Part shown: one piece after another, positions 131 to 21,620 of the stretch | Layout: every line of letters begins with the position of its first letter | How positions within the stretch are numbered: the first letter of the stretch is position 1 | NCBI GenBank assembly: GCA_023212695.1 | Contig: JALCCG010000273.1 | Location: forward strand, 1 to 27,958 | Length of the DNA: 27,958 bases | Direction of reading: 5' to 3' | Origin: Sporisorium sorghi | Lineage: Eukaryota; Basidiomycota; Ustilaginomycetes; Ustilaginales; Ustilaginaceae | Made by a program: the position numbers and the translations under genes | The notes under the pieces: model-generated | What the model was told of the DNA's origin: nothing | The model's database searches: none | What the model saw: only the letters and a program-made list of their open reading frames with translations

Positions 131-302
131 ATATAACGTTTATGTGTTCCTGACGCCCCACCACCTTAGAGGAGTAAAGCGACTGGCCGCGATGCGGTTG
201 GGTGGTGCGGGTGTGACCGGCTGAATTTACCCTCGTCTCTTCCTCATCGGTCCGGACCAAGGATTGGCGAAGCCGATCCGCAGTGTGAATATGGTGTTAT
301 AT
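131..302. repeat. attC-like site R1
   Basis: Left box ATATAAC (131-137), right box GTTATAT (296-302), 172 bp. Inside are an H1 hairpin (arms around CCCCACCACC and GGTGGTGCGGG), a GACCGG-type H2 followed by the conserved CCAAGG, and H3, where GGAT.GGC pairs with GCC.ATCC around 261-280. The outer stem is the TGTGTTC-type left arm against GTGAATA. This is the longest of the repeats. Confidence 0.8.
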
Positions 303-328
303 GTTGTCGGGGGCCTTCCATGAGCTAC

Positions 329-790
329 TCACAAAATATTCTCCAACATCTTTCGATATTTATTAATTATCGGTTTGTCTGGAGGGCTTATTTCTTTTGG
401 TAGATCTTCAATATTAAAGAACTTTAAGTCAGTCACTTCCGTTTCTTCAATATTAATCTCTCCTCCGTATTCATTGCATAAATACACGGCAACAACATTA
501 TAAACTTCATCTCCATGGGGGTATTGATAATAAAGTTCTTTACCTGAAAAGACATCTAACAATCTAAGCTCTTTAGCTTTCAATCCTGTTTCCTCAAACA
601 ATTCTCTTCTTGCTACTTCTTCCATTGACTCACCAGGTTCAAGCGATCCTCCAGGCAATCCCCATAGTTCATTATCTTTTCTTAGCTGCATTAGAAGCCT
701 ATTTTGTTTATCAACTAATATAACGCAGGCTCCAGCCATAATTAACGGTCTGGTTCCTACGATTTTTCTTAAATCCATTATGTATCCCAT
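329..790 (-). CDS. Nudix hydrolase (cassette gene)
   Basis: A 153-residue member of the Nudix superfamily, which cleaves nucleoside diphosphates linked to another moiety, often as housecleaning enzymes. The Nudix box is complete at about residues 48-70: GGSLEPGE, then RRELFEETGL, which gives G-x5-E-x7-R-E-x2-E-E-x-G. I chose the ATG at 790 because AAGGGAGA lies 9 nt upstream. An in-frame ATG at 859 would add 23 residues but lies inside repeat R2, so it is probably a shadow. The gene is alone in its cassette between R1 and R2 and is AT-rich. It is intact. The substrate cannot be told from sequence. Confidence 0.9.
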   Translation of the reverse strand: MGYIMDLRKIVGTRPLIMAGACVILVDKQNRLLMQLRKDNELWGLPGGSLEPGESMEEVARRELFEETGLKAKELRLLDVFSGKELYYQYPHGDEVYNVVAVYLCNEYGGEINIEETEVTDLKFFNIEDLPKEISPPDKPIINKYRKMLENIL

Positions 791-838
791 GGATGTTCTC
801 TCCCTTGTCTTTTTAATTTTTGAATTTGCACCGATTGC

Positions 839-957
839 ATCTAACGTTCCTGTATTCATGAACCCCGAAGGGGTTGTCTGCTGAAATTCCTCCTCGAAAA
901 TCCATCTCGCAGACCCAGGCTCCGTTAAGGAGCCGCAGCTTGAATATTATGTTATAT
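839..957. repeat. attC-like site R2
   Basis: Boxes ATCTAAC (839-845) and GTTATAT (951-957), 119 bp. H1 is a short AACCCC/GGGGTT hairpin, H2 pairs GTCTGC with GCAGAC, and H3 pairs GGCTCC with GGAGCC. The outer stem is GTATTCA against TTGAATA. R9 and R11 have nearly the same layout and length, with different bases in the H3 loop. Confidence 0.85.
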
Positions 958-971
958 GTTGTTGGGGAACA

Positions 972-1502
972 TCATTGAATTAACTTACTAAGTTCTTCTC
1001 TAATCTCATAATTCAAACCATTCTTTTTCAATAAGTTTCTTATTAAATGTTTATCTACAATTTCTTTATATGTTTGTAAGTGACCTAAAATTAAATTCGA
1101 TTTCTCTTCTCTTCCCATTAAATAGTAGGCCACATACCAGATTTCAGGACTTGATATCTTTATTCCATCCCATGTTCTATTTCGAATATGAGATGTAGGT
1201 AAATGAACTACTTCTCCTTCATTGTAAAAAGCAAATCCACCAATTATATCTATTCTTAATGAAGTAATATGTATTCTATATTTACTTGCAAAAGGGTAGT
1301 CTCCACTATCCTGTTCTAGCCAATCATATCCATCTATAGCTTTAAGCAATATGTCTTTTGGACACTCAACCATGAAATCCCAATCATTCACTAAATCTGT
1401 TAACTTCAAATAATATAACATGCCACTTCCACCAAGAGAATAAGTTAACTTATTCTCTTCAAATCTTCTGATAATTGGTAAAATTTCTTGATGATCTATC
1501 AT
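972..1502 (-). CDS. Nucleotidyltransferase-like protein (cassette gene)
   Basis: A 176-residue protein with the marks of the minimal nucleotidyltransferase fold. GGSG at about residues 24-27 is followed after some 13 residues by DWDF (the paired aspartates), and LRIDIIG at about 82-88 supplies a possible third carboxylate. This resembles aminoglycoside/AbiEii-type nucleotidyltransferases, which transfer an NMP to a small molecule or to RNA or protein. The ATG at 1502 has a very strong AGGAGGGGG site just upstream. It is the only gene between R2 and R3 and is intact. No partner antitoxin gene sits in the cassette. The family call is by motif only; the substrate is unknown. Confidence 0.65.
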   Translation of the reverse strand: MIDHQEILPIIRRFEENKLTYSLGGSGMLYYLKLTDLVNDWDFMVECPKDILLKAIDGYDWLEQDSGDYPFASKYRIHITSLRIDIIGGFAFYNEGEVVHLPTSHIRNRTWDGIKISSPEIWYVAYYLMGREEKSNLILGHLQTYKEIVDKHLIRNLLKKNGLNYEIREELSKLIQ

Positions 1503-1535
1503 TGTTCCCCCTCCTAATATGTTTGCCCCAATTAC

Positions 1536-1618
1536 TTATAACGTTTCGACCCAGCTTATGCTGAGTGTCCGGCGAATGCGGACCAAGGGATGCCCGCACC
1601 GTGAATATATTGTTAACT
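1536..1618. repeat. attC-like site R3 (short form)
   Basis: Boxes TTATAAC (1536-1542) and GTTAACT (1612-1618), only 83 bp. It still keeps three small hairpins: CAGC/GCTG, GTCCG/CGGAC and GGG/CCC, plus the CCAAGG motif between the second and third. The right outer arm GTGAATAT is kept and the left arm is degenerate. It may show the minimum needed for a working site. Confidence 0.8.
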
Positions 1619-1632
1619 GATGTACTTGCCTT

Positions 1633-2208
1633 TTATTTAACTTTCATAAAATTAATAATTTCTATTAGGTCTCCCGCAGATGATCCTGAAATGTCTATAC
1701 TAGTTTGCTTTGTGCAAAGATCATCAAGTATCTGTGAGAAAGGTATCAATCCTACTCCTTGTTGAGATATATGTATAAGTTCTCTTTGATCTTTTACATT
1801 TCCATGAACTAGAATGTGTTTCCAGTTCGCATTAAGCATGAATCTATTACGCAATTTCACTTTTTTATCTGTTTCATATTTATTTCGAACCCAAGCAATA
1901 GCGCATTCTTTAATTTGTTGCTCATTTCTTAACTTGGCACTAGTTTTTGTGAGTGCTTTTAAATCTTCCATTAACTCTTTAGTAAGCTTGCTTATGTAAC
2001 CCACAGGTCTGACACTGACCTGTACTTCACAATGAATACAATCCCATGTATTTATATCTGTATTTTTAATTGCAAGAATATCAATTTCATCGATGTTTTC
2101 TTTAATACCACGGATCGTAAAATAACCATTTCTATTAAACCACTCTTCTACAAGTGTTTCTGCTTGCACTGCCATGTCATCACTCGTTTCATTTTTTTGA
2201 TCTTGCAA
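1633..2208 (-). CDS. PD-(D/E)XK-like hypothetical protein (cassette gene)
   Basis: 191 residues from a TTG start at 2208, or 180 from an ATG at 2175. Neither has a good ribosome site. The TTG lies only 8 bases from the cassette's core box, so the start is uncertain and translation may depend on sequence outside the cassette. The N-terminal half reads EEWFNRNGYFTIRG, then DEIDILAI, then HCEVQVS. The spacing of the D and the ExQ residues after an early Glu fits a PD-(D/E)XK nuclease-type fold with Q in place of K. The C-terminal half has no motif I recognise. It is intact and alone between R3 and R4. The nuclease role is inferred. Confidence 0.55.
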   Translation of the reverse strand: MQDQKNETSDDMAVQAETLVEEWFNRNGYFTIRGIKENIDEIDILAIKNTDINTWDCIHCEVQVSVRPVGYISKLTKELMEDLKALTKTSAKLRNEQQIKECAIAWVRNKYETDKKVKLRNRFMLNANWKHILVHGNVKDQRELIHISQQGVGLIPFSQILDDLCTKQTSIDISGSSAGDLIEIINFMKVK

Positions 2209-2215
2209 GTATTTC

Positions 2216-2376
2216 AGTTAACGTTAATGTATCTGCGAACCCGAGAGGCTTAAGGGAGCGTATGCGACCGGGTCCGAAGGACTTAGACTCGCAGGGTTGT
2301 TCGCAGAAACCACTTCCCTGCTTACCTCTTCTTGCGAACCAAGGGTAATGCCCGCAGCGTAGATACGATGTTATAT
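2216..2376. repeat. attC-like site R4
   Basis: Boxes AGTTAAC (2216-2222) and GTTATAT (2370-2376), 161 bp. A large H1 runs from AACCCGAGAGGCTTAAG to CTTAGACTCGCAGGGTT. H2 pairs TTCGCA with TGCGAA where other sites use GTCTGC/GCAGAC, a clear compensatory change. H3 pairs GGG with CCC around 2342-2353. The left box is the exact complement of the right box of R3, across the gene between them. Confidence 0.85.
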
Positions 2377-9162: not shown

Positions 9163-9190
9163 TACTCTCCCCCATGTCTGTCCCCTCTCT

Positions 9191-10681: not shown

Positions 10682-10720
10682 AGAAAGTAACTCCTTTACT
10701 TAACATGATATAGTCGTTCC

Positions 10721-10756
10721 GGAGATCCCAGTAAGTTCTCGTAGATGGGAATCTCC
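10721..10756. promoter_or_regulatory. Inverted repeat in the leader of the esterase operon
   Basis: GGAGAT.CCCA (from 10721) and TGGGA.ATCTCC (to 10756) form an imperfect 10-bp stem 40 bp before the esterase start, inside the 199-bp gap after the kinase gene. No T-run follows, so an operator or mRNA leader structure is more likely than a terminator. The rest of 10682-10880 shows no gene. Confidence 0.4.
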
Positions 10757-10880
10757 TTTCGCAATCGATACTACGCACCCTATGTGAACGTAATATGAAC
10801 CAAATGGGAATAAATGTAATGAATGAATAAATGGATCGTTTACCTTTTCGCTCGCTCGGGTTTCGATTGTATGGATGGAG

Positions 10881-12233
10881 TCACATGGCTGGCAGAAAAA
10901 CGGTAACCGCCGTTCCTTTTCCGGCAGTGCTGTCTATCTCGACCCGGCCGCCGTGCAATTCGACAACGCGCTTTACGATCGCGAGTCCAAGTCCGCTTCC
11001 CCCTGCTTCGCGGTTGCGTGATTGATCAGCCTTGAAGAAGCGTTCGAAGATGCGCATGCGGTCTTCTTCGGTAATTCCGATTCCCGTATCCCGCAAGACA
11101 ACTCCGATTTCACGATTTCTGGATTGGAGCTCGATGGAGATGTCGCCGCCCTCTGGCGTAAATTTGATGCTGTTGCTGAAAATATTTAGCCATACCTGGC
11201 TCAGCAGGTCTTCGTCCGCGTAAATCGCCGTATTTAGGAGTTCAAGGTGAATATTTAATCGTTTGGCCCCCCATTGCGGCTCTGTGGCTACGACAATACG
11301 GCGGAGCTGTCTGTCAAGCCGAACGAGCGACGGATGGAAGGGATGATGCTCCGAATCAATCGTGGCCAGTCGAAGCATGTTCTCGCTGAGCCGGGATAGA
11401 CGCATGCTTTCGTGCCGGATAATGTTCAGACAGCGCCGATGCTCGACTTCATCAAGACCACTCCTTTGCAGGATCGAGACAAAACCCGAAATGGACGCCA
11501 GAGGGGTCTGAATTTCGTGGGACACGTTGGAAACAAATTCCTGACGCATCTTTTCAACTTGGCTCAACTCGTGGGCCATTAGTTGAAATTGCTCCGACAA
11601 GACGCCCAATTCATCTTTGCTCTTTGTCTGAAGATTGATGCTATAATCTCCTTTGGCAATTTTTCTGGTTGCGGCTGTCAATGCTTTTAAGGGCTTTATC
11701 ACTACGCTGGTAAAGAGAATGAACTTGGTGTTGGCGATCACAATCGCAATTAAAATCACAACTCCCAAAATCTTAAGCAGTTGAGAGATATTAGAACCTT
11801 CCGGATGGATTATGAGTGCCATCTGTTCGTCGGCTGTTTGTAAAGGGAACCCCATAAGCAGGCTCGTCGGTAGGGGAAGAACGGACGTGCGCCTCACGAC
11901 TTCGGCACCGCCCTGAATCCGGCGGATATCCTCGCCTGTAAGGTTAGGCTTACTTGCCTGGCCATAAGCGTAGCGAAGCCCGTTCCGATCGTATACCCAT
12001 AGGGATATCTTCTGCTTTTCGGACAACTGTTTTAGAAAAAGGTCGCGTTCGGTTGGCGCCAATCGGGAGAAAGCTTCCGATATCAACCCGTTTCGCATCG
12101 CATACTCGTGTTGTATGGATTGCGTGATCTGGTCTTTAAACAAATAAACAGTGATCGGAATCGCGCTTCCGAGACCTATCGCTACTGCGACGAAAAATAA
12201 CAATACTATTTTTAAATATAAGCTCTTAATCAT
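10881..12233 (-). CDS. Sensor histidine kinase
   Basis: 450 residues. TM1 spans about 5-33, an extracytoplasmic sensor loop about 34-152, and TM2 about 153-178. A HAMP domain follows (PLKALTAATRKIAKGDY, about 181-230), then HisKA with the phosphorylated His239 in NVSHEIQTPLASI. The ATPase domain has an N-box (WLNIFSNSIKFTPEGG), G1 (LRDTGIGI), an F-box region (IFERFFKAD) and G2 (GGSGLGLAI). Everything needed for autophosphorylation is present. It overlaps the response regulator stop by 8 bp, so the pair is translationally coupled. The sensor loop is small and has no fold I recognise. Given the adjacent serine hydrolase and ABC genes, a cell-envelope or antimicrobial stress signal is plausible. 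Confidence 0.93.
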   Translation of the reverse strand: MIKSLYLKIVLLFFVAVAIGLGSAIPITVYLFKDQITQSIQHEYAMRNGLISEAFSRLAPTERDLFLKQLSEKQKISLWVYDRNGLRYAYGQASKPNLTGEDIRRIQGGAEVVRRTSVLPLPTSLLMGFPLQTADEQMALIIHPEGSNISQLLKILGVVILIAIVIANTKFILFTSVVIKPLKALTAATRKIAKGDYSINLQTKSKDELGVLSEQFQLMAHELSQVEKMRQEFVSNVSHEIQTPLASISGFVSILQRSGLDEVEHRRCLNIIRHESMRLSRLSENMLRLATIDSEHHPFHPSLVRLDRQLRRIVVATEPQWGAKRLNIHLELLNTAIYADEDLLSQVWLNIFSNSIKFTPEGGDISIELQSRNREIGVVLRDTGIGITEEDRMRIFERFFKADQSRNREAGGSGLGLAIVKRVVELHGGRVEIDSTAGKGTAVTVFLPAM

Positions 12234-12909
12234 AGCATCCCGTCTCTAACCGGTATCCGAGACCGCGAACCGTTATAATTCGAAAAAGATGGGTATAGGC
12301 GGCAAACCGCTCCCGCAGCCGCTTGATATGAACATCGACCGTCCGCTCGTCTCCTTCGTGGTCGAATCCCCATACCGTTTCAATAATCTGATCTCGCATA
12401 AAGATTTGGCCGGGGTAGCTTGCAAGCTGATATAATAGCTCGAATTCCTTTAACGGCAAATTCCAATTCACGTTGCCGTCCGAAACGATCCCCCGAAGCC
12501 GATCCAGCTTAAAGCTTCCTAATTTAACCACTTTTTCGGCCGTAATTCGGTAACGGCGCAGCACTGCTTTAACTCGGACCACCAGCTCCTGCGGATCAAA
12601 AGGCTTGACAAGGTAATCATCGGCACCTAAGCTGAATCCCTTCACCTTCTGACTCGTTTCATGCTTGGCCGTAATCATGATTATTGGTAGTTCGGGGTTC
12701 AAAAGCCGCAGTTCACGGCATAAATCCCACCCGTCCATGACAGGCATCATGACATCAAGCACAACCAAATCTGCAGGCGAGCTTTCCATTTCTGCGAGCG
12801 CTTCCCGGCCGTTGACCGCTCCCCAGACACGATACCCTTCGCGGCTTAATACAATTAAAATCATTTCCAGCATATGCGCATCATCTTCAACTACAAGAAC
12901 ACTTGTCAT
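12226..12909 (-). CDS. OmpR/PhoB-family response regulator
   Basis: 227 residues. The receiver domain has acidic residues Asp9/Asp10, phospho-acceptor Asp52 in LVVLDVMMP, Thr80 and Lys102 (YLVKPF). The C-terminal winged helix is about 135-225 (LPLKEFELLYQLASYPG, then TVDVHIKRLRERF, ending GLGYRLE). It should bind tandem DNA sites when phosphorylated by the overlapping kinase. The ATG at 12909 follows AAGGAGG. It begins 30 bp after the serine hydrolase stop, so hydrolase, regulator and kinase are probably one transcript. Confidence 0.94.
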   Translation of the reverse strand: MTSVLVVEDDAHMLEMILIVLSREGYRVWGAVNGREALAEMESSPADLVVLDVMMPVMDGWDLCRELRLLNPELPIIMITAKHETSQKVKGFSLGADDYLVKPFDPQELVVRVKAVLRRYRITAEKVVKLGSFKLDRLRGIVSDGNVNWNLPLKEFELLYQLASYPGQIFMRDQIIETVWGFDHEGDERTVDVHIKRLRERFAAYTHLFRIITVRGLGYRLETGCYD

Positions 12910-12939
12910 TGCTTATGCCTCCTTACTAATTCAGCCCAA

Positions 12940-14490
12940 TCATTTCTTAATCGTTCGAGTTTGATGTTTTTCAAACTTGATCGACCGAACCAACCGAATA
13001 ATTTCCATGCTTCCCTTCAGTGCCATAAGTACAGTCATCAACTTCAGCCAAAGGATTAAATCCGGCTGATAGATGGTTGCAATATGCCATATCGCTACAA
13101 CTTGAGTCATGCTCAACAACAGGATAATAAACAGGCCTGCAAAATTCAGAACAATTCTTGATATTAACTTCATGGATATTTTAGTATAGCCGGAATTGTC
13201 AGGGCTCCACCGCCCAAGGCAGCGCTTCGCAGTTCTAACGATCGTATATAATAACCATGCGCTGAGTATGAACATTAGTCCATTTACGATCCAGTATTTC
13301 TGCGACATGCTTAGACCCGAGCTTCCAATCGGTTTTTCATTCAGTATGTTTATGACTCCGGAGGCTATGTGGGTAGTGGTAATGACGTGCGTTTTGTTGG
13401 GCCAGGTGGCATCGATCATGTCAAGTACGTTAGCGAAGACGATAACTCCTAGTTGTTGTTCGGGAACGATGTAAGTTTGGGCTTGAAACCCAACTGAACC
13501 GCCCGGCTGACCGATAACCGGCCAGTCGTTAATGCGGCCTGTCATCCAACCCATGGCGTACGTTCCTGGAACAGGTTCGGTCTGCATCAGTCGAATGCCG
13601 TCCGAAGAGAGCACGGAATGATCTTCATATCGGCCGCCGTTTATTTGGGCAATCAAGTAATGGCTCATGTCCACCGTGCTGGTATAGAAATAGCCCGCCG
13701 GCGCATCTCCTGGAATAAAAACATAAGGGCCGTCGTAGGGAACATTGTATCCGAATATCCGACGATAGGGCGTAGCTAGTCCGTGTACGTCTGCATCATC
13801 GAGCGTCACGAAGCTGTTATGCATAGACAGAGGATTGAAAATATGCTCCTTCACATAGTCGCCATAGGACTGGCCGGATACTTGTTGCACAATATAGCCG
13901 AGCAATACATAATTGGCGTTCGAATACCTGTAGGGATGTTCGGATAACGTAGCTTGCTTTAAAAACTTTTCCGCGTATGACATGGCATTTTTTTCTATCG
14001 CATCTTGATATTGATCGTTGATACTTGACAGCGTGTTACTAAAAGTTGAGATCTGGGAGAACCCGCTTGTTTGGTTAAGCAACTGACGTACAGTAATAAA
14101 ATCTGCACCGTTATATTTGGTGGGGATATAGCGTTGTATAGGCGCATCCAAGTCGATTTCTCCTGCTTCTGCAAGTTGCAGAACGGCCGTAGCCGTTATT
14201 GACTTGCCGATCGAACCTATACCGAAAGGTGTTTCCGGTGTTACAGGACGACCCGATGAATCGGCCTGGCCATATCCCTTAAGGTAAAGAATGCGATCGC
14301 CCTGAACAATCCCGAGAGACAGCCCCGGAAGACGCTGTCGTCTCATTTCGCGAGCAATATACGCATCCACCTCGGAGAAGACTGAAGTTCCAGATCGCTC
14401 TACTTGCGTATTTCCATCACTTCGCGCTGAGATGAATAGGGGGAAGACGAACAGACCACATAAGATGATTGCTATAATTCTCTTTCTCAA
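12940..14490 (-). CDS. Membrane-anchored serine hydrolase, beta-lactamase/PBP4-type
   Basis: 516 residues. A signal segment (about 4-21) precedes a beta-lactamase/D-peptidase-type domain with the SxxK nucleophile Ser93-Lys96 (SIGK) and the YxN motif Tyr189-Asn191 (YSN). The third motif appears as GQPGGSVGF, in place of KTG or HxG. Three hydrophobic helices (about 395-500) end the protein. It fits class C-like serine hydrolases of the envelope (esterase, D-aminopeptidase or PBP-like); a true beta-lactamase is less likely. The start is TTG at 14490 with AAGGAGTG upstream. A TetR-type palindrome lies 20 bp before the start, so the TetR protein upstream probably controls the hydrolase/two-component operon. 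Confidence 0.85.
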   Translation of the reverse strand: MRKRIIAIILCGLFVFPLFISARSDGNTQVERSGTSVFSEVDAYIAREMRRQRLPGLSLGIVQGDRILYLKGYGQADSSGRPVTPETPFGIGSIGKSITATAVLQLAEAGEIDLDAPIQRYIPTKYNGADFITVRQLLNQTSGFSQISTFSNTLSSINDQYQDAIEKNAMSYAEKFLKQATLSEHPYRYSNANYVLLGYIVQQVSGQSYGDYVKEHIFNPLSMHNSFVTLDDADVHGLATPYRRIFGYNVPYDGPYVFIPGDAPAGYFYTSTVDMSHYLIAQINGGRYEDHSVLSSDGIRLMQTEPVPGTYAMGWMTGRINDWPVIGQPGGSVGFQAQTYIVPEQQLGVIVFANVLDMIDATWPNKTHVITTTHIASGVINILNEKPIGSSGLSMSQKYWIVNGLMFILSAWLLYTIVRTAKRCLGRWSPDNSGYTKISMKLISRIVLNFAGLFIILLLSMTQVVAIWHIATIYQPDLILWLKLMTVLMALKGSMEIIRLVRSIKFEKHQTRTIKK

Positions 14491-14509
14491 TTTCAGTCCA
14501 CTCCTTATC

Positions 14510-14537
14510 GTGAATGAATATTTTTAAATTCATTCAC
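14510..14537. promoter_or_regulatory. Likely TetR operator before the serine hydrolase
   Basis: A perfect palindrome: GTGAATGAAT (14510-14519), 8-bp spacer, ATTCATTCAC (14528-14537). The same motif with the same spacing lies upstream of the TetR gene at 15161-15188. Confidence 0.75.
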
Positions 14538-14570
14538 ATGTAATTAAAAAAAAAGGCCCACTTGAATCAT

Positions 14571-15146
14571 TTATGATGATTTGTTAGTTAGGCCTTGCAT
14601 GATGAATTCTGCTAAATATTGAATAATTTGGGGGAAATGTTGAATGCCAATTTCATCTTTATGAGTATCGATGTAGACCAAAGAATCAATGAAAACTGGC
14701 AAAAGATCCTCGTCGATATCTTCTCTGATTTTCCCCTCAGCCTTCCATTTTTTGAATAAATCCATGTAAAAATCACGAAAGGAATCAATATTTTTGCTGC
14801 CTTCATTTCGATAGTAATGTTCAAGTTTCTTATAGAAATCCTGACTATACCATTCTTTCAAAATGGGGTTTGCATGAATAGCCTCGACATTCCCTATGAT
14901 CAGTTGATTAATTACTTTCACCGGCTCCTGATCCAAATCAATCGATTCCATGAGCCATTTCTTGAGGTTCTCATTTTCTTGAATATAGATTTCCAAAAAC
15001 AACTGCTCTTTAGATGTATAATAGTTGTAAAAAGTCCCAACACCAATACCAACTGATTCGGCTATTTCTTTAATATTCGTTTTCTTGAATCCCTTTGTAC
15101 TGAACAAAGCCTTTCCGCATATAAAAATGTCGGTTTTTATATCCAT
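14571..15146 (-). CDS. TetR-family transcriptional regulator
   Basis: 191 residues. The N-terminal helix-turn-helix is at about 23-50 (TNIKEIAESVGIGVGTFYNY, then TSKEQLF), typical of TetR repressors. The rest is an all-alpha ligand-binding and dimer domain ending in FIMQGLTNKSS. The ATG at 15146 follows a GAGG site. Palindromes 80 bp before the next gene and just upstream of its own start suggest that it represses itself and the serine hydrolase operon. The inducing ligand is unknown. Confidence 0.92.
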   Translation of the reverse strand: MDIKTDIFICGKALFSTKGFKKTNIKEIAESVGIGVGTFYNYYTSKEQLFLEIYIQENENLKKWLMESIDLDQEPVKVINQLIIGNVEAIHANPILKEWYSQDFYKKLEHYYRNEGSKNIDSFRDFYMDLFKKWKAEGKIREDIDEDLLPVFIDSLVYIDTHKDEIGIQHFPQIIQYLAEFIMQGLTNKSS

Positions 15147-15160
15147 ATGCCCTCAACCTT

Positions 15161-15188
15161 CAAAATGAATATTTTATAATTCATTCAC
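15161..15188. promoter_or_regulatory. Likely TetR operator before the tetR-like gene
   Basis: CAAAATGAAT, 8-bp spacer, ATTCATTCAC. The right arm is identical to the site at 14528-14537 and 7 of 10 left-arm bases match. It is placed 15 bp before the regulator's start, which suggests autoregulation. Confidence 0.7.
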
Positions 15189-15417
15189 ATTAAATCACAC
15201 AGCTTAGCGCATTGTCAAACAAACAAAAAAAGCCCAGAGAAACGAATAAAGCGCCGTAAAAGAAACACTACCTATTCAATATGTCTATTTTTTATCACAC
15301 TCGAAATTTGTAGCCAATGTCTTGGTTGTAACTAGAGAACTACGAAAACTAAACAAGCTGGCTCCTGTTAAATACAGGAACCCCCTAGAGTTTTTTTATT
15401 TTGTTGCGGGACTTTCG
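15189..15417. other. Non-coding junction between TetR block and cassette array
   Basis: No credible gene in about 230 bp. A small hairpin (TCCTGT/ACAGGA near 15362-15378) is followed, after a C-rich stretch, by a T-run at 15391-15397, a weak terminator candidate on the plus strand. Repeat R5 begins at the right end with no cassette gene on its left side, so this is an array break point. Confidence 0.5.
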
Positions 15418-15563
15418 TCTAAACATTCTTGTATTCACGAGCCCGAGAGGCTTAAGGTCGAGCTAGCGACCTCGCAGGGTTATCTGCCTGACTTAACTTC
15501 CCCGAAATGTCTCGGGCAGATCAAGGACCCGCAAGGATATGCAGCGTGAATACGTAGTTATGT
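15418..15563. repeat. attC-like site R5
   Basis: Left box TCTAAAC (15418-15424, one base longer than the usual CTAAC form, so degenerate), right box GTTATGT (15557-15563), 146 bp. H1 runs from CCCGAGAGGCTTAAGG to CTCGCAGGG, and H2 pairs ATCTGCC with GGCAGAT. The outer stem TGTATTCACG / CGTGAATACG is nearly perfect. It is the first site after the non-cassette block. Confidence 0.8.
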
Positions 15564-15597
15564 GATTTCGAAGTCCTCTTCGATCAACTCAAATACT

Positions 15598-16158
15598 CTA
15601 TTCTTTCCAAAGTCTTGTTACTTCTTCTAATACTAGGTCTTTAAATTTTATTTTATAGATGTCTGGTTTCTTTGTTTGATTCATGAAGTCCAATCCGTAA
15701 TTCGAATTAAAATAATTCATCATCAATGTCATTACATTCCCGTGTGTTCCCATAGCAACTTTCTTTCCCTTGTGCTCTTCTAAGATATTTTTCAGCACTA
15801 CAACTGATCTATTCTGGCAAACAGTGTTAGACTCTCCTCTCCTGGCAATGCATAGGCAGGGTCATCAAACATCTTCTTCATAGCGGGCACAAATTCTTCA
15901 TTAGTAATAATATAGTCTGAAAAGTGCCTTTCCCTAAGATTCTCAAATATCTGAATATTCAATTCTAACTCTTTGGCCAACCCCTCCAATTGCTCGAGCA
16001 TAAGGACTTGATATAATAATATTTATTCCTTCATCCTTTAATATTTCTGTTATTTTTTCTGCGTTCATCTTTCCCTCTAGGGTAAGCCCTCTAGTTCTTT
16101 CATTTCCTTCTGTGTATGGTGACTCGGCATGCCTAACCATATAAATAATGGTCTTCAT
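15598..16158 (-). pseudogene. Histidine phosphatase (phosphoglycerate-mutase-like), two frameshifts
   Basis: The protein is spread over three frames. The first piece (from ATG 16158, ribosome site GGGAGGG) has the catalytic RHAES motif in MVRHAESPY and then SSPYARAI. A small deletion after that shifts to LEGLAKELELNIQIFENLRE. A second shift near 15828-15836 (GAGAGGAGAG, apparently two extra bases) leads to ESNTVCQNRSVVVLKNILEEH, and the second catalytic His follows in THGNVMTLMM. The family removes phosphate through a phosphohistidine intermediate. With both breaks a full enzyme cannot be made. It sits alone in its cassette between R5 and R6. Confidence 0.85.
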
Positions 16159-16204
16159 ATAACCCTCCCTGAATTGCTTTCATTATTACAATTACTGTGA
16201 TTTC

Positions 16205-16365
16205 ACATAACGTCTTTGTATTCACGAACCCTCACTGGCTTAAGGGGCGAATGCCCCGGGTCCGACGGACTTAGCCAGTGCAGGTTGTCCGGCTGTAACC
16301 GCCTCCCGAAATCCGTCTGCCGGACCGAGGGCCGAATGGCCCGATGCATTAATATGGTGTTAGGC
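16205..16365. repeat. attC-like site R6
   Basis: Boxes ACATAAC (16205-16211) and GTTAGGC (16359-16365, a perfect GTTRRRY), 161 bp. H1 pairs CACTGGCTTAAG with CTTAGCCAGTG and contains a GGGGC/GCCCC sub-hairpin. H2 pairs GTCCGGC with GCCGGAC and H3 pairs GGGCC with GGCCC. This is one of the clearest examples of the three-hairpin plan. Confidence 0.88.
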
Positions 16366-16992
16366 GAAGTCGTTGTCTTCCATGATTAATCTTGCATACT
16401 CATTCCAATCCTTATTATCTGTGTTGATTTCACTGGTTGGTACTACTGACTTTGCTGCTTGTATTCTAAGACTGTTTTGGGTTTCAATTAATTCTTTACA
16501 TGACTGCTCGATATACTCATTAGACTTATTGATCCAATCCTCTGGATTTCTGCTCTTAATTCTTTCTTCTACCTTATCGTTTGAAATAGTAAGCAAAATG
16601 CATTTAGCACCAAGTACATATAATTGTCTTTCTAATTCTGTTATTTCAATATTATTCGAGTCGGGGAATGCAACTCGATGATTTAAATGAAATCTTTCAA
16701 ATATAAATAAGAGACCCCTTGATTTCCTTCAACCCGGACCTAAAAAAGTTGCCCAGTCATTTAATTGCTTTATCGTGTCTACTCGGTTTCCTAACAATTC
16801 AATATGCTGTTCTCGAGATAACCGTACGAACTTTCCATGGACATTATTCAATATTTGAGAGTAATGTTCTCCGAGTATAACTACACTTAATTCTGATGTT
16901 TCATCTTGTGCTTGATATTGTTTTATTGCTTTAAGAAGAGATGTTTTTCCTGCATTTGAGTATCCCTCAAGAATGATTTCTCTAATATTCAT
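16360..16992 (-). pseudogene. P-loop kinase-like protein with an in-frame TGA
   Basis: About 210 codons in one frame. The Walker A motif GYSNAGKTSLL is at residues 10-20. The frame stops at TGA (16729-16731) after ATFLGPG, yet continues in the same frame as RKSRGLLFIFERFHLNHRVAF and LYVLGAKCILLTIS, content that looks like the rest of a deoxynucleoside/thymidylate-kinase-type P-loop fold. A single CGA- or GGA-to-TGA change would explain it. A programmed readthrough is possible but nothing in the sequence argues for it. The start has AAGGAGG 12 nt upstream. The true stop codon (16360-16362) lies inside the core box of R6, so the gene fills its cassette completely. Confidence 0.75.
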
Positions 16993-17022
16993 TCAGTAGT
17001 TGTTCCTCCTTACATTGATTTC

Positions 17023-17188
17023 GCCTAACGTTCTCTGTGTTCACGAACCCGAAATGCTTAAGATAGCGTAGCTACCGGGTGGCTCGCCACTTAGCTTTGC
17101 AGGGTTGATCGCCTGATTCCGCTTCCTAGCTTCTTACTTCTAGCGATCCAAGGACCTACAGGACCGCCACGTGAACACGTTGATAAGT
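17023..17188. repeat. attC-like site R7
   Basis: Left box GCCTAAC (17023-17029), right box GATAAGT (17182-17188, one change from GTTAAGT), 166 bp. H1 runs from CCCGAAATGCTTAAG to CTTAGCTTTGCAGGG, with a GGTGGC/GCCACT-like inner hairpin. H2 pairs GATCGC with GCGATC. The outer stem is TGTGTTCACG against CGTGAACACG. The mutated core may reduce its activity. Confidence 0.85.
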
Positions 17189-17198
17189 GATGTTGCTT

Positions 17199-17753
17199 CT
17201 ACTTGAGACGACTCTCAAAATAATTAAATATTTCTTGCCCTTTATAGTCTCTTAATTTTTTATATTGATTACGATAATTACAATTCCAATAACTTATCAT
17301 TCTGGCTTTAGTCTTCTCATAATATACTGGGTTGTCTGTAATAAATCTCAAATAATTATTCATGTTCAAATATTTCATGTGATCATATATAACTTCTAGG
17401 ATCTCATATACATATTCACCAACTAATTGAATAACAAATGGCACGACAAAAGGTTGGTCTATCATTATTATTTCTTTTATCTTCCGTTCTCTTATATAGC
17501 CATCACAATGTCTTGTGAAAAAACAATTCACTATTCCAACTTGTTCAGCGTCCAACTGGCTAATCAATTCGTTATCTGGCTCTTGAAGATAGATTCTATA
17601 GGGTATTCTTAATAATTCATTGTTCAATGTAACCTCAAAACACTCTGAATGAGGCCAATCACTTCGAAATAATATAGATCTATTAATCTTGGAAATCTTG
17701 TCTCCTTGACTTAATGGAAACGAAGTGTGAGTTATTATCTGATTTCGCATCAT
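17199..17753 (-). CDS. Hypothetical protein (cassette gene)
   Basis: 184 residues if it starts at the ATG at 17753, chosen because AGAAGG lies 8 nt upstream. A TTG at 17792 in the same frame overlaps the core box of R8 and is less likely. I do not recognise the family. Features are a polar N-terminal half with FRSDWPHSECFEV, RIPYRIYLQEPDNE and CFFTRHCDGYIRE, and an aromatic, basic C-terminal half (YWNCNYRNQYKKLRDYKGQE). It has no signal peptide or clear membrane segment, though PFVVPFVIQLVGEYVYEIL is fairly hydrophobic. It is intact, AT-rich, and alone between R7 and R8. Confidence 0.75.
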   Translation of the reverse strand: MMRNQIITHTSFPLSQGDKISKINRSILFRSDWPHSECFEVTLNNELLRIPYRIYLQEPDNELISQLDAEQVGIVNCFFTRHCDGYIRERKIKEIIMIDQPFVVPFVIQLVGEYVYEILEVIYDHMKYLNMNNYLRFITDNPVYYEKTKARMISYWNCNYRNQYKKLRDYKGQEIFNYFESRLK

Positions 17754-17790
17754 TGATTCGACCTTCTTAAATATGTATTTAGGCAATTTC

Positions 17791-17936
17791 AATTAACGTT
17801 CGGGTATTCACGAAACGCCCCAGCCTTAGATAGCTCTTATCTTAGGCTGGGGTGTTTGTTGTCTGAGCTTTCTTCCATGATTATACATCTGACAACCAAA
17901 GGGCGATAGTCATGAAGCTTGAATACGGTGTTAGAT
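17791..17936. repeat. attC-like site R8
   Basis: Boxes AATTAAC (17791-17797) and GTTAGAT (17930-17936), 146 bp. H1 is a long hairpin, CGCCCCAGCCT pairing with AGGCTGGGGTG, unlike H1 of its neighbours in sequence but in the same place. H2 pairs TTGTC with GACAA and is followed by CCAAAGG, close to the conserved CCAAGG. The left box does not match the R7 core across the gene (5/7). Confidence 0.8.
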
Positions 17937-17962
17937 GAAGTATTTGACCTCTCTGAATTAAC

Positions 17963-18445
17963 TTATAAATTTGCTTGTATTGTTATTTTCTTAATCCAGT
18001 TTAAATCCTTTCCAAACCTTTTCTCGACATGTACATAGTACACATCTAGAACAGTTATCTCTCTAAAATCATCAATTTTATATATTGTGAATTTAGTCTT
18101 GTATTCTCCTTTTGGAGTGGGAATTGTAAAGCCCATTGTATCCGTATCAATTTCTTCTGCAATACTGTCTTTTAATATTTCTTCTGATTCCCACCAACTT
18201 CCAATAGCCCCTGGAGTATAGTATCCTTCATCTTCTATAAAACTCATATTCCCTAAACCATCAGCGATTGGGTAAACGTAATGGTCTGCTAATTCTTCTT
18301 TCAGTCTCACCATATCAAGTTCTACAAGAAATCTGTTTTCATCGTATGTAGTAATTTTGCCTTCTATTTGAATATCATCTGAATTTATTGAAGGAGAAAG
18401 ATTATTGTAATAGACAATTGATACCACAATAAGTAGTACTAACAC
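17963..18445 (-). CDS. Membrane-anchored hypothetical protein (cassette gene)
   Basis: 160 residues from a GTG at 18445. The frame is open further upstream and encodes TIIYLGTCVLVLLIVVSIVYY, a clear N-terminal membrane segment, so the natural start is probably the ATG at 18475-18477, which has AGGA 10 nt upstream. That ATG is out of frame by one base: an A-run (18469-18474) seems to have lost one A. So the gene is either slightly broken at its start, or starts at GTG or another non-ATG codon. The remaining about 135 residues are extracytoplasmic, with YVYPIADGLGNMSFIEDEGYY and repeated acidic stretches. I do not recognise the family. Confidence 0.6.
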   Translation of the reverse strand: MLVLLIVVSIVYYNNLSPSINSDDIQIEGKITTYDENRFLVELDMVRLKEELADHYVYPIADGLGNMSFIEDEGYYTPGAIGSWWESEEILKDSIAEEIDTDTMGFTIPTPKGEYKTKFTIYKIDDFREITVLDVYYVHVEKRFGKDLNWIKKITIQANL

Positions 18446-18503
18446 ACAAGTGCCTAAGTAAATTATTGTTTTTTCATTTTTTCATCATCCTTTCGGATAT
18501 TTC

Positions 18504-18619
18504 ATCTAACGTTCCTGTATTCACGAACCCCAAAGGGGTTGTCTGCTGAAATCCCTCTTCGAAATTCTTCCCGCAGACCAAGGCTCCAACGGAGCCGCTG
18601 CTTGAATATTATGTTATGA
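18504..18619. repeat. attC-like site R9
   Basis: Boxes ATCTAAC (18504-18510) and GTTATGA (18613-18619), 116 bp. H1 is AACCCC/GGGGTT, H2 GTCTGC/GCAGAC and H3 GGCTCC/GGAGCC, with CCAAGG between H2 and H3. The outer stem is GTATTCACG against CTTGAATAT. It is nearly the same as R2 and R11. Confidence 0.87.
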
Positions 18620-18640
18620 GATGTCATTGGCTTCTGCGAA

Positions 18641-18973
18641 CTATCCCCAAAACATTCCGTTGTGTCCTTCATCCACGATCTTTAACTGTGTTTCAAAATC
18701 TTCATTCGGTTCTATGTCATCTATGAAATGCCATTTCCCTTTACTGTCTTGCCAATATATTTTCCATTCATTCTCACCTAATCTAAACTGAGCTACTGGC
18801 ATCTGCACCCATTGATCACTTTTGAATCCTTGTCTTTCTTCAATTAATGTCACGTGATTTCCTCTGATCTTGTAACTAATTTTAATTTGGCTTTTCACAT
18901 GTTCCGGCACTGCATTTTCGGTGTACTTGTCCATAATCTTCATAATCCGCTTCTTCGTAAAATCATCCATCAA
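18641..18973 (-). CDS. DUF3024 family protein (cassette gene)
   Basis: 110 residues. The C-terminal part has the pattern I associate with DUF3024: ITLIEERQGFKSDQWVQ-like, then MPVAQFRLGENEWKIYW and DSKGKWHFIDDIEPNED. The function of this small soluble family is unknown. Start ATG at 18973 or 18970 with AAGGAAGG upstream. It is intact and is the only gene between R9 and R10. Confidence 0.75.
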   Translation of the reverse strand: MMDDFTKKRIMKIMDKYTENAVPEHVKSQIKISYKIRGNHVTLIEERQGFKSDQWVQMPVAQFRLGENEWKIYWQDSKGKWHFIDDIEPNEDFETQLKIVDEGHNGMFWG

Positions 18974-19025
18974 TTAGTCTCGCCTTCCTTATTCTCTTTT
19001 GCCTTGATTATATCACGATGATTTC

Positions 19026-19187
19026 TCATAACGTTTGTGTGTTCCTGAACCCGAGAGGCTTAAAGGAGTGTAGCGACTCGGTGGCTCCGCCACTTAGCCT
19101 TGCAGGGTTGTCTGCTTAAACAACTTCTTCGAAAACCCTCGGGCAGACCAAGGAGCAACGCGACGCAGCAGGAAAACGGTGTTAACT
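19026..19187. repeat. attC-like site R10
   Basis: Boxes TCATAAC (19026-19032) and GTTAACT (19181-19187), 162 bp. H1 runs from ACCCGAGAGGCTTAA to TTAGCCTTGCAGGGT, with a GTGGC/GCCAC inner hairpin. H2 pairs GTCTGC with GCAGAC, followed by CCAAGG. The right outer arm is poorly kept (GGAAAACGG in place of GTGAATACGG), so this site may fold less well. Confidence 0.82.
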
Positions 19188-19188
19188 G

Positions 19189-19476
19189 ATGTCAACGACC
19201 TCCTCGAAATACCTCAAAAAAGTCCTCCAACCTACTTCACTGAATTGCCTTCAAAACACCGCTCTTAAATCTACTTCACCGAATTCCCTTCAAGACACAG
19301 CTCTTCAATCTACTTCACCGAATTGCCTTCAAAACACTGCTCTTCAATCTACTTCATCGAATTGCCTTCAAAACACTGCTCTTCAATCTACTTCACCGAA
19401 TTGCCTTCAAAACACCATTCTTCATCCTACTTCACCGATTCACCTTCAAAACACCAATCTTCAACTGCTTCATTGA
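19189..19476 (+). CDS. Doubtful ORF of 13-residue repeats
   Basis: 95 codons on the plus strand, opposite to all other cassette genes, with a repeating LQNTALQSTSPNC unit. The ATG lies just after the core box of R10 and has no ribosome site. It is open because a 39-bp repeat has no stop in this frame. On the minus strand each frame is broken by stops. I think it is more likely a by-product of the repeat than a gene, but it is the only sizeable ORF in this cassette. Confidence 0.2.
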   Translation: MSTTSSKYLKKVLQPTSLNCLQNTALKSTSPNSLQDTALQSTSPNCLQNTALQSTSSNCLQNTALQSTSPNCLQNTILHPTSPIHLQNTNLQLLH

Positions 19477-19525
19477 AATGTCTTCAAACCACCGTTCTTC
19501 AACCTACTTCATTGAACTGCATTCG
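19225..19525. repeat. 39-bp tandem repeat filling one cassette
   Basis: About eight units. Unit starts fall at 19225, 19264, 19303, 19342, 19381, 19420, 19459 and 19497, a 39-bp period with one 38-bp step. A unit reads roughly CTTCAATCTACTTCACCG + AATTGCCTTCAAAACACTGCT with a few changes per copy. The repeats fill nearly the whole cassette between R10 and R11, which has perfect terminal boxes but no convincing gene. Confidence 0.9.
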
Positions 19526-19544
19526 ATACAATCCCGTTGATTTC

Positions 19545-19663
19545 AGTTAACGTTTCTGTATTCATGAACCCCGCTAGGGGTTGTCTGCTAAAATGCCGCC
19601 TCGAAAAATCCATCTAGCAGACCAAGGCTCCACAAGAGCCGCTGCTTGAATATGATGTTAAGT
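19545..19663. repeat. attC-like site R11
   Basis: Boxes AGTTAAC (19545-19551) and GTTAAGT (19657-19663, a perfect GTTRRRY), 119 bp. H1 is AACCCC/GGGGTT, H2 GTCTGCT/AGCAGAC, and H3 GGCTC/GAGCC, with CCAAGG in place. The outer stem is GTATTCATG against CTTGAATATG. It is the site nearest the recombinase. Confidence 0.87.
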
Positions 19664-19715
19664 GATGTTCCAGTCTTCCTCGAATCACCACTCAATCTCT
19701 TACGTCTTTTATCTT

Positions 19716-20093
19716 TTATGAACGAAGTAATTTAAATTTCTTTAGATCAATATCAAATTCTCCTTCCGTCAGTACATCGAGTCCCAAAAGTCCGTTAATG
19801 TTGTGATATTTAAATGATGTAAAATCTATGTATACATCTTTTAAAATGAAATCCCCTACCTGTATACCGTCGATTCGCTTACTGAAGGCATGCTCTTTAC
19901 CTCCGATTCCGTAGCTGGTTATGATTTCATCGTCCATACTCACTAATATCCCAATCTCATCCACTTCATCTTGTGAAATCAAGCTATGACTGGCTCCTGT
20001 ATCGATCACGATGTTCGATATCACTTTCTTCTGCTTATTAAAATGGACTGTTATTTCCGTGAATAACAGCCCATCTCTATATTCAATATTCAT
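19716..20093 (-). CDS. Retropepsin-like aspartyl protease (cassette gene)
   Basis: 125 residues. The single-domain aspartyl protease pattern is clear: the active-site motif IDTGASHS at about residues 30-37, a flap-like region (TSYGIGGKEH), and the late NGLLGLDVL motif. Such proteins act as homodimers, each giving one Asp. The start ATG (20093) directly follows the TAA stop of the 81-residue gene upstream, so the two are coupled and share the first cassette. The protein is soluble. Its target is unknown. It is intact and probably driven by the promoter at 20366-20374. Confidence 0.85.
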   Translation of the reverse strand: MNIEYRDGLLFTEITVHFNKQKKVISNIVIDTGASHSLISQDEVDEIGILVSMDDEIITSYGIGGKEHAFSKRIDGIQVGDFILKDVYIDFTSFKYHNINGLLGLDVLTEGEFDIDLKKFKLLRS

Positions 20094-20339
20094 TTAAAGA
20101 TTTCTCCTTAATCCTATATTTTTCCGTACCTTCACAACGATTTGATCTTTGGAAGTATGGTAAACCAGAGTCTTGTCTCTACTGTTCAATAATTCGCGAG
20201 TCGCTTCTTCATCACTGATCGGGCCAATCACGGCCACATCATCAATAATCTCTTGATTGTCTGTTTCTTCAGAATGAAGAACTTCGAATTTTACGAATTG
20301 ATTCGGAAAAATCTGTTGAACTTCTTGCCATTTCATCAT
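20094..20339 (-). CDS. Small partner of the retropepsin-like protein
   Basis: 81 residues, opening MMKWQEVQQIFPNQFVKFEVL and including DDVAVIGPISDEEATRELL and VVKVRK. Similar small proteins often occur beside retropepsin-like genes in bacteria, so a functional pair is likely; no biochemical role is known to me. The ATG at 20339 (or 20336) follows a perfect AGGAGGG site. It is the first gene of the first cassette next to the attI-like core. Confidence 0.75.
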   Translation of the reverse strand: MMKWQEVQQIFPNQFVKFEVLHSEETDNQEIIDDVAVIGPISDEEATRELLNSRDKTLVYHTSKDQIVVKVRKNIGLRRNL

Positions 20340-20365
20340 TGTCCCTCCTATGTTTTGTTGGTTAT

Positions 20366-20374
20366 ATTATACCA
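20366..20374 (-). promoter_or_regulatory. Extended -10 promoter inside the first cassette
   Basis: On the minus strand TGGTATAAT gives a perfect TATAAT with a TGn extension, 27 bp before the first cassette gene and about 33 bp inside the cassette from its core. No good -35 box is seen, which is common for extended -10 promoters. It could drive the two-gene cassette and perhaps later cassettes. Confidence 0.6.
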
Positions 20375-20406
20375 TTTCACAAGCCTATAGCTCTCACTGG
20401 AATTTC

Positions 20407-20492
20407 ACTTAACATCTTTTTCACGAACTTCACAAAAATAGCATCTCTTGAGGTGTTTACGTACTTCTTGAACACACCTTCAACAACCAAGT
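20407..20492. other. attI-like insertion site
   Basis: The core ACTTAAC (20407-20413; GTTAAGT on the minus strand, a perfect GTTRRRY) is the exact partner of the far end of the first cassette at 19657. To its right the sequence has no three-hairpin attC body. It has a single TTTTCACGAACTTCAC piece like a half outer arm, then AGGTGT/ACACCT as an imperfect inverted repeat (20455-20482), then CAAGTTCACGAC. It ends at the recombinase stop codon (20493). This is what an attI site beside the integrase would look like. Confidence 0.7.
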
Positions 20493-21605
20493 TCACGACT
20501 CCTCTTTCAATTGATCTAACGGACTTTTAATCCTTCTTATGTCCTTCACACTCACATGTGTGTACTTTTCGGTGGTACGTACACTTTGATGACCGAGCAA
20601 CTCTTGAATGAAGCGAATGTCAATTCCACCTTCCAATAGATGTGTAGCGAATGAATGGCGTAAGGCGTGAATACTAACCTTTTTCTGGATTCCAGAGACA
20701 GTACGTGCTTGTTCGAACACTTTTTGAACCGTTCGTTCAGTTATATGGCGCTCTGGGTGTTGACCTGGGAACATCCACATCTCAGGCTCTTCTTGTCGTA
20801 AATACGGTTGAACAATATCCATAGCTGTATCGGATAATAGCGTAAGACGATCCTTTCGACCTTTGCCTTGAGAAACTCGAAGCGTATTTCGCTCGAAATC
20901 AATGTCTTGAGTTTTCAACCGGACCACTTCCCCTACCCGTAATCCTGAGGAATAGGTAAGGTATAGGATCGCACGATGTTTTAAATTATGGAGTGCTTTT
21001 AAGATCAACATCACTTCGTTCATCGATAACACATTCGGCAACTTCTTTTCTTTCTTTGGGCGAACATAAGAGACTGTTTCCTCATGCAATAATACTTTAT
21101 GAGCGTAGAATTTGATCGCGCTAAGCGCTTGATTAACATAGGAATGCGAACATTTCCTGTGAAGCAAGTGTAAGGAATAACTCTGAATCATGTTCTCATG
21201 ACCCATCCCATTATTTTGCTGCTGTACAAAAGCATGAAATCGATGGACTTGACTACAATAAGCTTTTATCGTTTTTTTACTATAACCTCGAAGCTGCAGT
21301 GCATGAACCAAGGACCTTTTTATCGACTCATTCCAAGAATAGATTGGAGTTGTATCCTGCATATTAACTTCATTGTTAAACAAGCTGCACTCTTTCATCA
21401 ACACGCTATCAACATAAATCTTCGTTCCTTCAAAAAGTGTATATAACTGTTGAATGGATTCGGTTGTAAATGGAATCATCCAGATCTTTTTATCACTGAC
21501 CCATTTCCTTCCTGAAATTTCTCGAATCTTCATCACCATTTGTTCATCATAGTTAAAACGAACATACAAGGAACCTTCCTCATTCCGAGACACCCATATA
21601 CTCAC
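20493..21605 (-). CDS. Tyrosine recombinase of the cassette array (integron-integrase-like)
   Basis: 370 residues from the GTG at 21605 (AGGG 8 nt upstream); a GTG at 21614 would add three, and the numbering here counts from that one. Residues 1-85 form an extra N-terminal domain (GRKWVSDKKIWMIPF). The core-binding domain is about 95-180 and the catalytic domain about 190-360. All catalytic residues are present: Arg226 (SGLRVGE), Lys251 (QGKGRKDR), His316 and Arg319 (HALRHSF), His342 (LLGHQS) and Tyr351 (EKYTHV). The tail RIKSPLDQL resembles the SPLD tail of IntI proteins, but the extra stretch that marks true IntI between the Lys and the HxxR box is missing. It should cut and rejoin the G/TT cores. 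I infer that it moves the cassettes, from its position beside the array and the attI-like core. Confidence 0.9.
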   Translation of the reverse strand: MSIWVSRNEEGSLYVRFNYDEQMVMKIREISGRKWVSDKKIWMIPFTTESIQQLYTLFEGTKIYVDSVLMKECSLFNNEVNMQDTTPIYSWNESIKRSLVHALQLRGYSKKTIKAYCSQVHRFHAFVQQQNNGMGHENMIQSYSLHLLHRKCSHSYVNQALSAIKFYAHKVLLHEETVSYVRPKKEKKLPNVLSMNEVMLILKALHNLKHRAILYLTYSSGLRVGEVVRLKTQDIDFERNTLRVSQGKGRKDRLTLLSDTAMDIVQPYLRQEEPEMWMFPGQHPERHITERTVQKVFEQARTVSGIQKKVSIHALRHSFATHLLEGGIDIRFIQELLGHQSVRTTEKYTHVSVKDIRRIKSPLDQLKEES

Positions 21606-21620
21606 GTTCCCCACCCTCTC

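Follow-up and report, generated by a model that had tools for sequence, protein, structure and literature searches.

The window analysed here, contig JALCCG010000273.1 at its full length of 27,958 bp, was deposited under Sporisorium sorghi, and it very probably carries a chromosomal integron-like cassette system that is run by a tyrosine recombinase other than IntI. The right-hand flank of the window is 98.3% identical to Paenibacillus glucanolyticus NBRC 15330, so the DNA comes from a close relative of that strain. The source assembly has 23 Mb in 469 contigs, which is far above the 3-9 Mb of the family genomes searched, and is probably mixed or contaminated. Read along the minus strand, the recombinase gene (21614-20493) is followed by an attI-like core (20413-20407), by seven cassettes with the repeats R11 to R5 (down to 15418), by a 13-kb block of other genes, and by the repeats R4 to R1 (2376-131) with their cassettes up to the contig end. 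A preliminary description of the sequence had named 11 structured repeats between 15418 and 21614; all 11 exist, but that range covers R5-R11 only (15418-19663), and R1-R4 lie outside it at 131-2376. The reading as an integron-like system is drawn from the sequence, namely from the anatomy of the locus, the covariation of the end boxes, cassettes that start mostly at cores, an attI breakpoint where close genomes diverge, and the fact that recombinase and array go together. Our confidence in it comes mainly from the covariation of the boxes, from attI and from the comparison of strains. The preliminary description had already proposed it, and it is borne out by the layout shared among relatives, by cassettes common to several species that mostly have core ends, and by the attI breakpoint.

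The end boxes of the repeats agree across each gene. Partner boxes on the two sides of a gene matched at 7/7 positions in 7 of the 11 neighbouring pairs of the window, compared with 6 of 121 non-partner pairs. All pairs reported earlier were reproduced, i.e., the exact ones (R3-R4, R5-R6, R6-R7, R8-R9, R9-R10, R10-R11 and R11-attI), the 6/7 matches of R1-R2 and R2-R3, and the 5/7 match of R7-R8; likewise, the two boxes of a single repeat usually disagreed, as had been stated, and matched at 7/7 in only one of the 11 repeats (R1). In a survey of 14 arrays, nhmmer yielded 329 repeats that could be used, which formed 303 pairs of neighbours at distances of 100-3000 bp; 35 pairs that had no exact GTT/AAC ends were dropped, leaving 268. 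All four variable box positions matched across the gene in 181 of these 268 units, whereas 2000 within-array shuffles gave a mean of 22.4 full matches and a maximum of 38, and within single repeats the four positions matched in 32/288. The matched end stretch is about 18 nt and longer than the 7-base boxes, with positions 10-11 mostly mismatched: agreement was 0.81-0.95 at positions 4-9, 0.32 and 0.04 at 10 and 11, 0.90 falling to 0.51 at 12-18, and at background beyond. The outer stem formed in 223 of 252 predicted folds when the boxes of the cassette itself were joined, as in a free circle, versus 87/252 for the integrated form. The interior of the site is predicted to be a branched structure with compensatory changes, and its stems covary (92.6% of cells paired, a value reached by 0/500 shuffles, versus 82.0% after shuffling, on an alignment itself fitted to the model). 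On average, the fold of the non-gene strand is the more stable one (-37.1 versus -34.5 kcal/mol; the gene strand was lower in 30/252), which agrees suggestively with the bottom-strand use in integrons described in a part of PMC8946536.

Close genomes differ at attI. The identity of the window flank to NBRC 15330 extends over 6.1 kb (26506 down to 20410) and is followed by unrelated cassettes, and homology to four further genomes (G002, G073, G036 and G069) ends at 20399-20402, beside the attI core. All five genomes also have the MraY-like gene next to the system, at 92-99.7% identity, hence the chromosomal site is common to them. At the other end, window positions 1-154 match a distal cassette of NBRC 15330 at 99.35% identity; a shared distal cassette together with different attI-proximal ones is expected if new cassettes enter at attI. 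The comparison of close genomes had been suggested beforehand, and it gave near-identical flanks up to the attI core and different arrays past it. Among 262 flanked cassettes compared under limits of 80% identity and 70% coverage of both members, and with no limit on how far apart the starts lay, there were 22 homologous pairs of 13 families, with identities of 80.3-97.6%; two of the pairs were within a single genome. Seventeen of the 22 start at the core (-29 to -2), four further upstream (-49 to -150) and one inside, and at the far end 11 reach 4-20 nt beyond the core and none more than 20 nt. In a set of 20 start pairs, which overlap in content, are not independent and leave out pairs with starts more than 1 nt apart or identity below 80%, mean identity was 0.95 at +4 to +6 and at background level outside the core (0.33-0.51), which places the crossovers within AACGTTA.

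These results bear on the possibility that the repeats are insertions resembling miniature inverted-repeat transposable elements (MITEs) or repetitive extragenic palindromes, between which genes were shuffled by ordinary homologous recombination. The repeats, with a median length of 165 nt, are similar enough to recombine, and some cassette pairs fit such a process, as 4/22 share sequence upstream of the core and 11/22 stop near the start of the terminal repeat. The end boxes, however, pair across genes and not within repeats, so insertion or homologous recombination fails to explain them, and the flank common to the five genomes breaks at the attI core and not across repeats. We consider this explanation extremely improbable and rejected it as the main cause on box pairing and the attI breakpoint, the cassette-pair evidence being partly mixed; the exclusion of simple MITE insertion in the preliminary description, which was based on the same pairing across genes, agrees with this.

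The recombinase, attI and the array occur together in related genomes, a search of which had been proposed in the preliminary description. A covariance model built from R5-R11 recovered 10 of the 11 window repeats and nhmmer all 11; no part of the window matched Rfam at gathering scores. At E 0.01 the model gave 49 matches in 16 sequences (223 kb) and 324 matches in 25 sequences (456 kb). The genus sample comprised 100 genomes, of which 24 had the recombinase (E 1e-60) and 65 had repeats (E 1e-8); repeats were present in 24/24 recombinase-positive and 41/76 recombinase-negative genomes. Of 295 genomes sampled across the family Paenibacillaceae, 199 (about two thirds) had repeats, as did 38 of 398 genomes of a class sample (360 were negative), nine of the 38 being new to this analysis and possibly, but not certainly, members of the family. 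Repeat counts per genome are lower bounds; the array of one genome (G055) had 66 profile hits over 63 kb, 65 of them on one strand. Thirty recombinase loci were compared, from the 24 genus-sample genomes (two in G039), the window, G003, G045, G064 and G077. Repeats lay downstream on the same strand in 28 of them, at a minimum distance of 311-1702 bp from the closest piece of the recombinase, and the upstream sequence at hand, often just 2-3 kb, contained none; the other two loci (G005 and G015) end at contig edges. In arrays with a readable recombinase 3' end and first repeat, the end box of the first cassette recurred 22-156 bp past the recombinase stop in 26 of the 26 Paenibacillus arrays examined, with 13-17 of 18 matches versus 9-12 at the next best place, and in the same survey no attI-like box was found on a Cohnella plasmid. 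By eye, the half-sites of the window attI are palindrome-like. In close relatives attI has CGAAGTTCGTGAA-type half-sites, and the attC sites mostly have TTCGTGAATAC before the same ACGTT.

In another reading, a different enzyme, either XerC/D of the host or an unknown recombinase, would move the cassettes in trans, and the recombinase next to the array would be only a passenger. Arrays do persist where the recombinase is broken or was not detected, and the repeats on the Cohnella plasmid adjoin only distant tyrosine recombinases of 23-26% identity, all three of which were kept out of the 30-locus set. A passenger is nevertheless hard to reconcile with 28/30 recombinase loci that head an array in fixed order and orientation, with attI abutting the recombinase gene in all 26 Paenibacillus arrays of the attI survey, and with repeats in every recombinase-positive genome of the genus sample, and we regard mobilisation in trans as quite improbable. 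By blastn, the repeats matched two plasmid records, Cohnella herbarum and Paenibacillus pJ45TS6, and four other plasmid records matched non-repeat parts of the query. The repeats lie at L015 717-16658 on the Cohnella plasmid and at L016 7986-8134 on pJ45TS6, with no close recombinase in the stretch read, and the two plasmids are possible carriers between cells. In the phage collection, one 47-base fragment was found, in Paenibacillus phage phiBP.

The window recombinase retains the residues R226, H316, R319, H342 and Y351 and has an N-terminal region of about 95 aa, including a folded domain of about 75 residues. That it is a divergent IntI, acquired by Paenibacillus together with ordinary attC sites, would make the locus a canonical integron, and several observations speak for this: the layout is the same, the best solved-structure match is IntI4 (2A3V) both by sequence and by Foldseek (the full model having a pTM of only 0.48), a C-terminal SPLD motif is shared with IntI by eye, and in a small tree IntI and all recombinases with the N-terminal domain (N-domain recombinases) are separated from Xer-like proteins with support 97. 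Against it, the protein scored 203.2 bits with TIGR02249 (IntI), under the cut-off of 265, and lacks a stretch of about 40 aa between two IntI4 alignment blocks; the IntI-specific insert is present in IntI1 and a Vibrio IntI and absent from 13/13 aligned Paenibacillus array recombinases. The N-terminal domain, in turn, is not present in those two IntI proteins. In the same tree the Paenibacillus array recombinases group together (support 93), and with distant N-domain recombinases they are split from IntI and Xer (support 83). The sites differ as well, a strict GTTRRRY box being found in 65/301 and T at position 5 in 65%, so that the canonical consensus is not followed, and recombinase and cassettes have the same orientation. 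A canonical IntI is not supported, given the TIGR02249 score and the missing insert, and this explanation appears unlikely to us. A TIGR02249 search of genomes gave 0/100 and carries no weight, as the control also gave 0/14.

With NF040815 (XerA) the window recombinase scored 224.1 bits, above the cut-off of 220, and it is like XerA-type recombinases in its catalytic core. The solved XerA chains (4A8E and 5HXY) align only from residue 96-105 onward, leaving the N-terminal 95 or so residues as an extra part outside the alignment. XerA proteins are known for dif-type resolution, not for cassette arrays. Foldseek alone gave no match for the N-terminal domain at E 0.001; HARP (PF07443) scored 17.4 bits in a Spirochaetia relative (L010), below the gathering score of 25, and was not listed in the Pfam search for the window recombinase, L006 or L012. 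N-domain recombinases of Spirochaetia and Bacteroidota (L010-L013 and Chryseobacterium L123) are 34-39% identical to that of the window, have the same N-terminal W-IP motif and fall together with it in the split that sets IntI and Xer apart. Unlike the Paenibacillus recombinases, which adjoin attC-like arrays, those of L010-L013 had no attC-like repeats beside them in a repeat profile search, of which L123 was not part; the profile had no match in L010-L014, and a search for direct repeats in L010, L012 and L013 turned up families of two copies only, not attC-like in appearance.

Sedentary chromosomal integrons (superintegrons) with IntI are known, for example, from Vibrio, and the classical integron layout is divergent. 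The Paenibacillus system resembles superintegrons in its order of recombinase, attI and cassette array, in a split attC with boxes paired within the cassette, in open reading frames (ORFs) running mostly in one direction, and in tens of cassettes of varied cargo with GNAT acetyltransferases. It differs in that the recombinase has an N-terminal domain and no IntI additional domain, in that the cassettes follow the 3' end of the recombinase gene and share its direction, and in a multi-branched site with pairing over about 18 nt and a box that is mostly GTTANNNGA, not GTTRRRY. Among the features by which integrons are recognised, an array of genes each with one attC-like site and complementary R''/R' boxes within one cassette are found here, as is, to judge from sequence, a putative attI beside the recombinase gene; crossover in the GTT core is indicated by genome comparison only and resolved to AACGTTA, and an IntI with the additional domain around patch III is absent from the window. 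The system thus seems to work like an integron while standing outside that class by the IntI criterion and by the strict box consensus, and since the recombinase is not a canonical IntI, the system is properly called integron-like, and not an integron as strictly defined by IntI. Archaeal integrons likewise have arrays and a putative attI outside the classical hosts, and, according to parts of the report (PMC9668308), archaeal IntIs keep the IntI-specific additional domain, which the Paenibacillus recombinases lack. The statement in the preliminary description that integrons are rare in Firmicutes agrees with a section of the IntegronFinder 2.0 paper (PMC9024848), where the only complete integron of this phylum is in Limnochorda pilosa, along with a few integrase-less clusters. 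No integron report in Paenibacillus was found in the open-access texts at hand (including passages of PMC9892861, PMC4909258 and PMC11089894, the last a survey of Bacillales among plant isolates). Single sites of the present kind could have been counted in earlier surveys, as that survey of Bacillales, the integrase-less Firmicutes clusters (PMC9024848) and the place of Firmicutes among integron phyla (PMC8618304) in parts of these sources suggest.

A mechanism of the following kind may be proposed for the integron-like system. A circular cassette would carry one attC-like site. Folding of a single strand into a branched hairpin would let the boxes at both ends of this site pair over about 18 nt, interrupted by an internal loop of 2 nt. 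This folded strand is presumably the substrate and the array recombinase presumably the catalyst, which would join the folded site, at the AACGTTA core, to the attI next to the recombinase gene; the N-terminal domain of the recombinase may help to recognise branched DNA. Joining at that position would bring new cassettes in next to the recombinase, and the splitting of the site on integration would give each cassette matching boxes across its gene. More tentatively, and at somewhat less than even probability, the system may represent a second, IntI-independent integron lineage, in which a XerA-like recombinase without the hairpin-reading insert of IntI uses an N-terminal HARP/UvsW/XPB-DRD-like domain to read branched, folded single-stranded attC sites, with arrays of superintegron size across most Paenibacillaceae and cassettes exchanged between species.

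Several observations weigh against an integron-like system run by this recombinase. The pairs R4-R5 and R7-R8 break the box rule. No recombinase was detected at E 1e-60 in 41 of the 65 repeat-positive genomes of the genus sample, and none was found in the sequence fetched for four array stretches (G040, G098, G099 and G100). The array recombinase is interrupted or partial in many relatives, including G001, G002, G004, G012, G036, G069 and G072 (broken or split copies in L066 of G001, L051 of G002, L060 of G004, L049 of G012, L061 of G069 and L063 of G072), whereas the window copy is open; many arrays may therefore now be frozen or immobile. The homologous cassette pairs are not independent, one family supplying six of the 22. 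Only 7/22 are bounded by the core at both ends, four share sequence upstream past -40, and 11 stop 91-209 nt short of the far core (one on one side only), at about the start of the terminal repeat; in these 11 the gene appears to be the same and the terminal repeat to be different or diverged. The crossover, as far as the alignments go, is placed no finer than AACGTTA.

The features of the window are collected in Table 1. The R4-R5 interval is no cassette, as it spans 13,055 bp and its end boxes agree at 3/7 positions. By eye, the ORF translations of the block within it (2377-15417) include two ABC transporters, an esterase, a two-component pair, a beta-lactamase-like protein and a TetR regulator, and transposase-like fragments were seen at 3189-3690, near the edge of the block, which may be an insertion into the array or the join of two arrays. 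Near the other contig end, a large protein gene (24476-27937) with repeats at 270-bp spacing has 98.5% protein identity to NBRC 15330 over 676 residues.

Table 1. Recombinase, attachment sites and cassettes on the contig, in minus-strand order
Feature	Position	Strand	Basis or content
Tyrosine recombinase	20493..21614	-	373 aa, GTG start, open frame
attI-like site	20407..20492	-	directly after recombinase stop; core 20407-20413, AAC 20411-20413 (GTT on - strand)
First cassette (R11-attI)	19657..20413	-	aspartyl-protease-like ORF 19716-20093 and 81-aa ORF 20094-20339
R11, attC-like repeat	19545..19663	-	covariance model and boxes
Cassette R10-R11	19181..19551	-	mainly 39-bp tandem repeats (19189-19551); ORFs of at least 60 aa only on + strand, against array direction
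R10, attC-like repeat	19026..19187	-	covariance model and boxes
Cassette R9-R10	18613..19032	-	DUF3024 gene 18641-18973
R9, attC-like repeat	18504..18619	-	covariance model and boxes
Cassette R8-R9	17930..18510	-	160-aa ORF 17963-18445, without Pfam match
R8, attC-like repeat	17791..17936	-	covariance model and boxes
Cassette R7-R8	17182..17797	-	197-aa ORF 17199-17792, without Pfam match
R7, attC-like repeat, degenerate outer box (5/7)	17023..17188	-	covariance model and boxes
Cassette R6-R7	16359..17029	-	short open frames 16360-16596 and 16729-16992, apparently a single broken gene (by eye)
R6, attC-like repeat	16205..16365	-	covariance model and boxes
Cassette R5-R6	15557..16211	-	histidine-phosphatase-like gene over three open frames, apparently broken
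R5, attC-like repeat, last before 13-kb gap	15418..15563	-	covariance model and boxes
R4, attC-like repeat	2216..2376	-	covariance model and boxes
Cassette R3-R4	1612..2222	-	191-aa ORF 1633-2208
R3, attC-like repeat, short (83 nt)	1536..1618	-	nhmmer and boxes; missed by covariance model
Cassette R2-R3	951..1542	-	176-aa ORF 972-1502
R2, attC-like repeat	839..957	-	covariance model and boxes
Cassette R1-R2	296..845	-	ORF 329-859, NUDIX-like (by eye)
R1, attC-like repeat	131..302	-	covariance model and boxes
Next cassette, start only (cut by contig end)	1..137	-	comparison with P. glucanolyticus NBRC 15330

In 216 of 252 cassettes the longest ORF with an ATG start has the direction of the array, in 18 it has the opposite one, and in 18 it is shorter than 50 aa. 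A cargo sample of 90 ORFs was taken from the 206 of 90-330 aa (228 of at least 80 aa in all). Among the matches listed, the best 25 of 49 families, the GNAT acetyltransferase family PF00583 was matched by 14/90 cassette ORFs, NUDIX and LprI by three each, and TIR, SIR2, CdiI immunity and others once each. Cassette ORFs also matched 28 PADLOC families, mostly with one member each among the best 25 of the 28. The same cassette gene, 94-97% identical, was seen with a different or diverged terminal repeat in L092, L083, L089 and L087 (arrays of G012, G055, G069 and G073).

In surveys, IntI is the defining mark of an integron, and by this measure Firmicutes have almost none, as stated in part of the IntegronFinder 2.0 paper (PMC9024848). 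The N-domain recombinases of Spirochaetia and Bacteroidota (L010, L011, L012, L013 and L123) are worth a look. The arrays supply hundreds of unexplored cassettes, and the system might serve as a DNA assembly tool in Bacillales. If the present reading is true, it would offer a natural test of what a recombinase needs for folded single-stranded sites, and searches based on IntI would miss a major reservoir of mobile genes, with the repeats of an IntI-less cassette platform present in two thirds of the genomes sampled from a large Gram-positive family.

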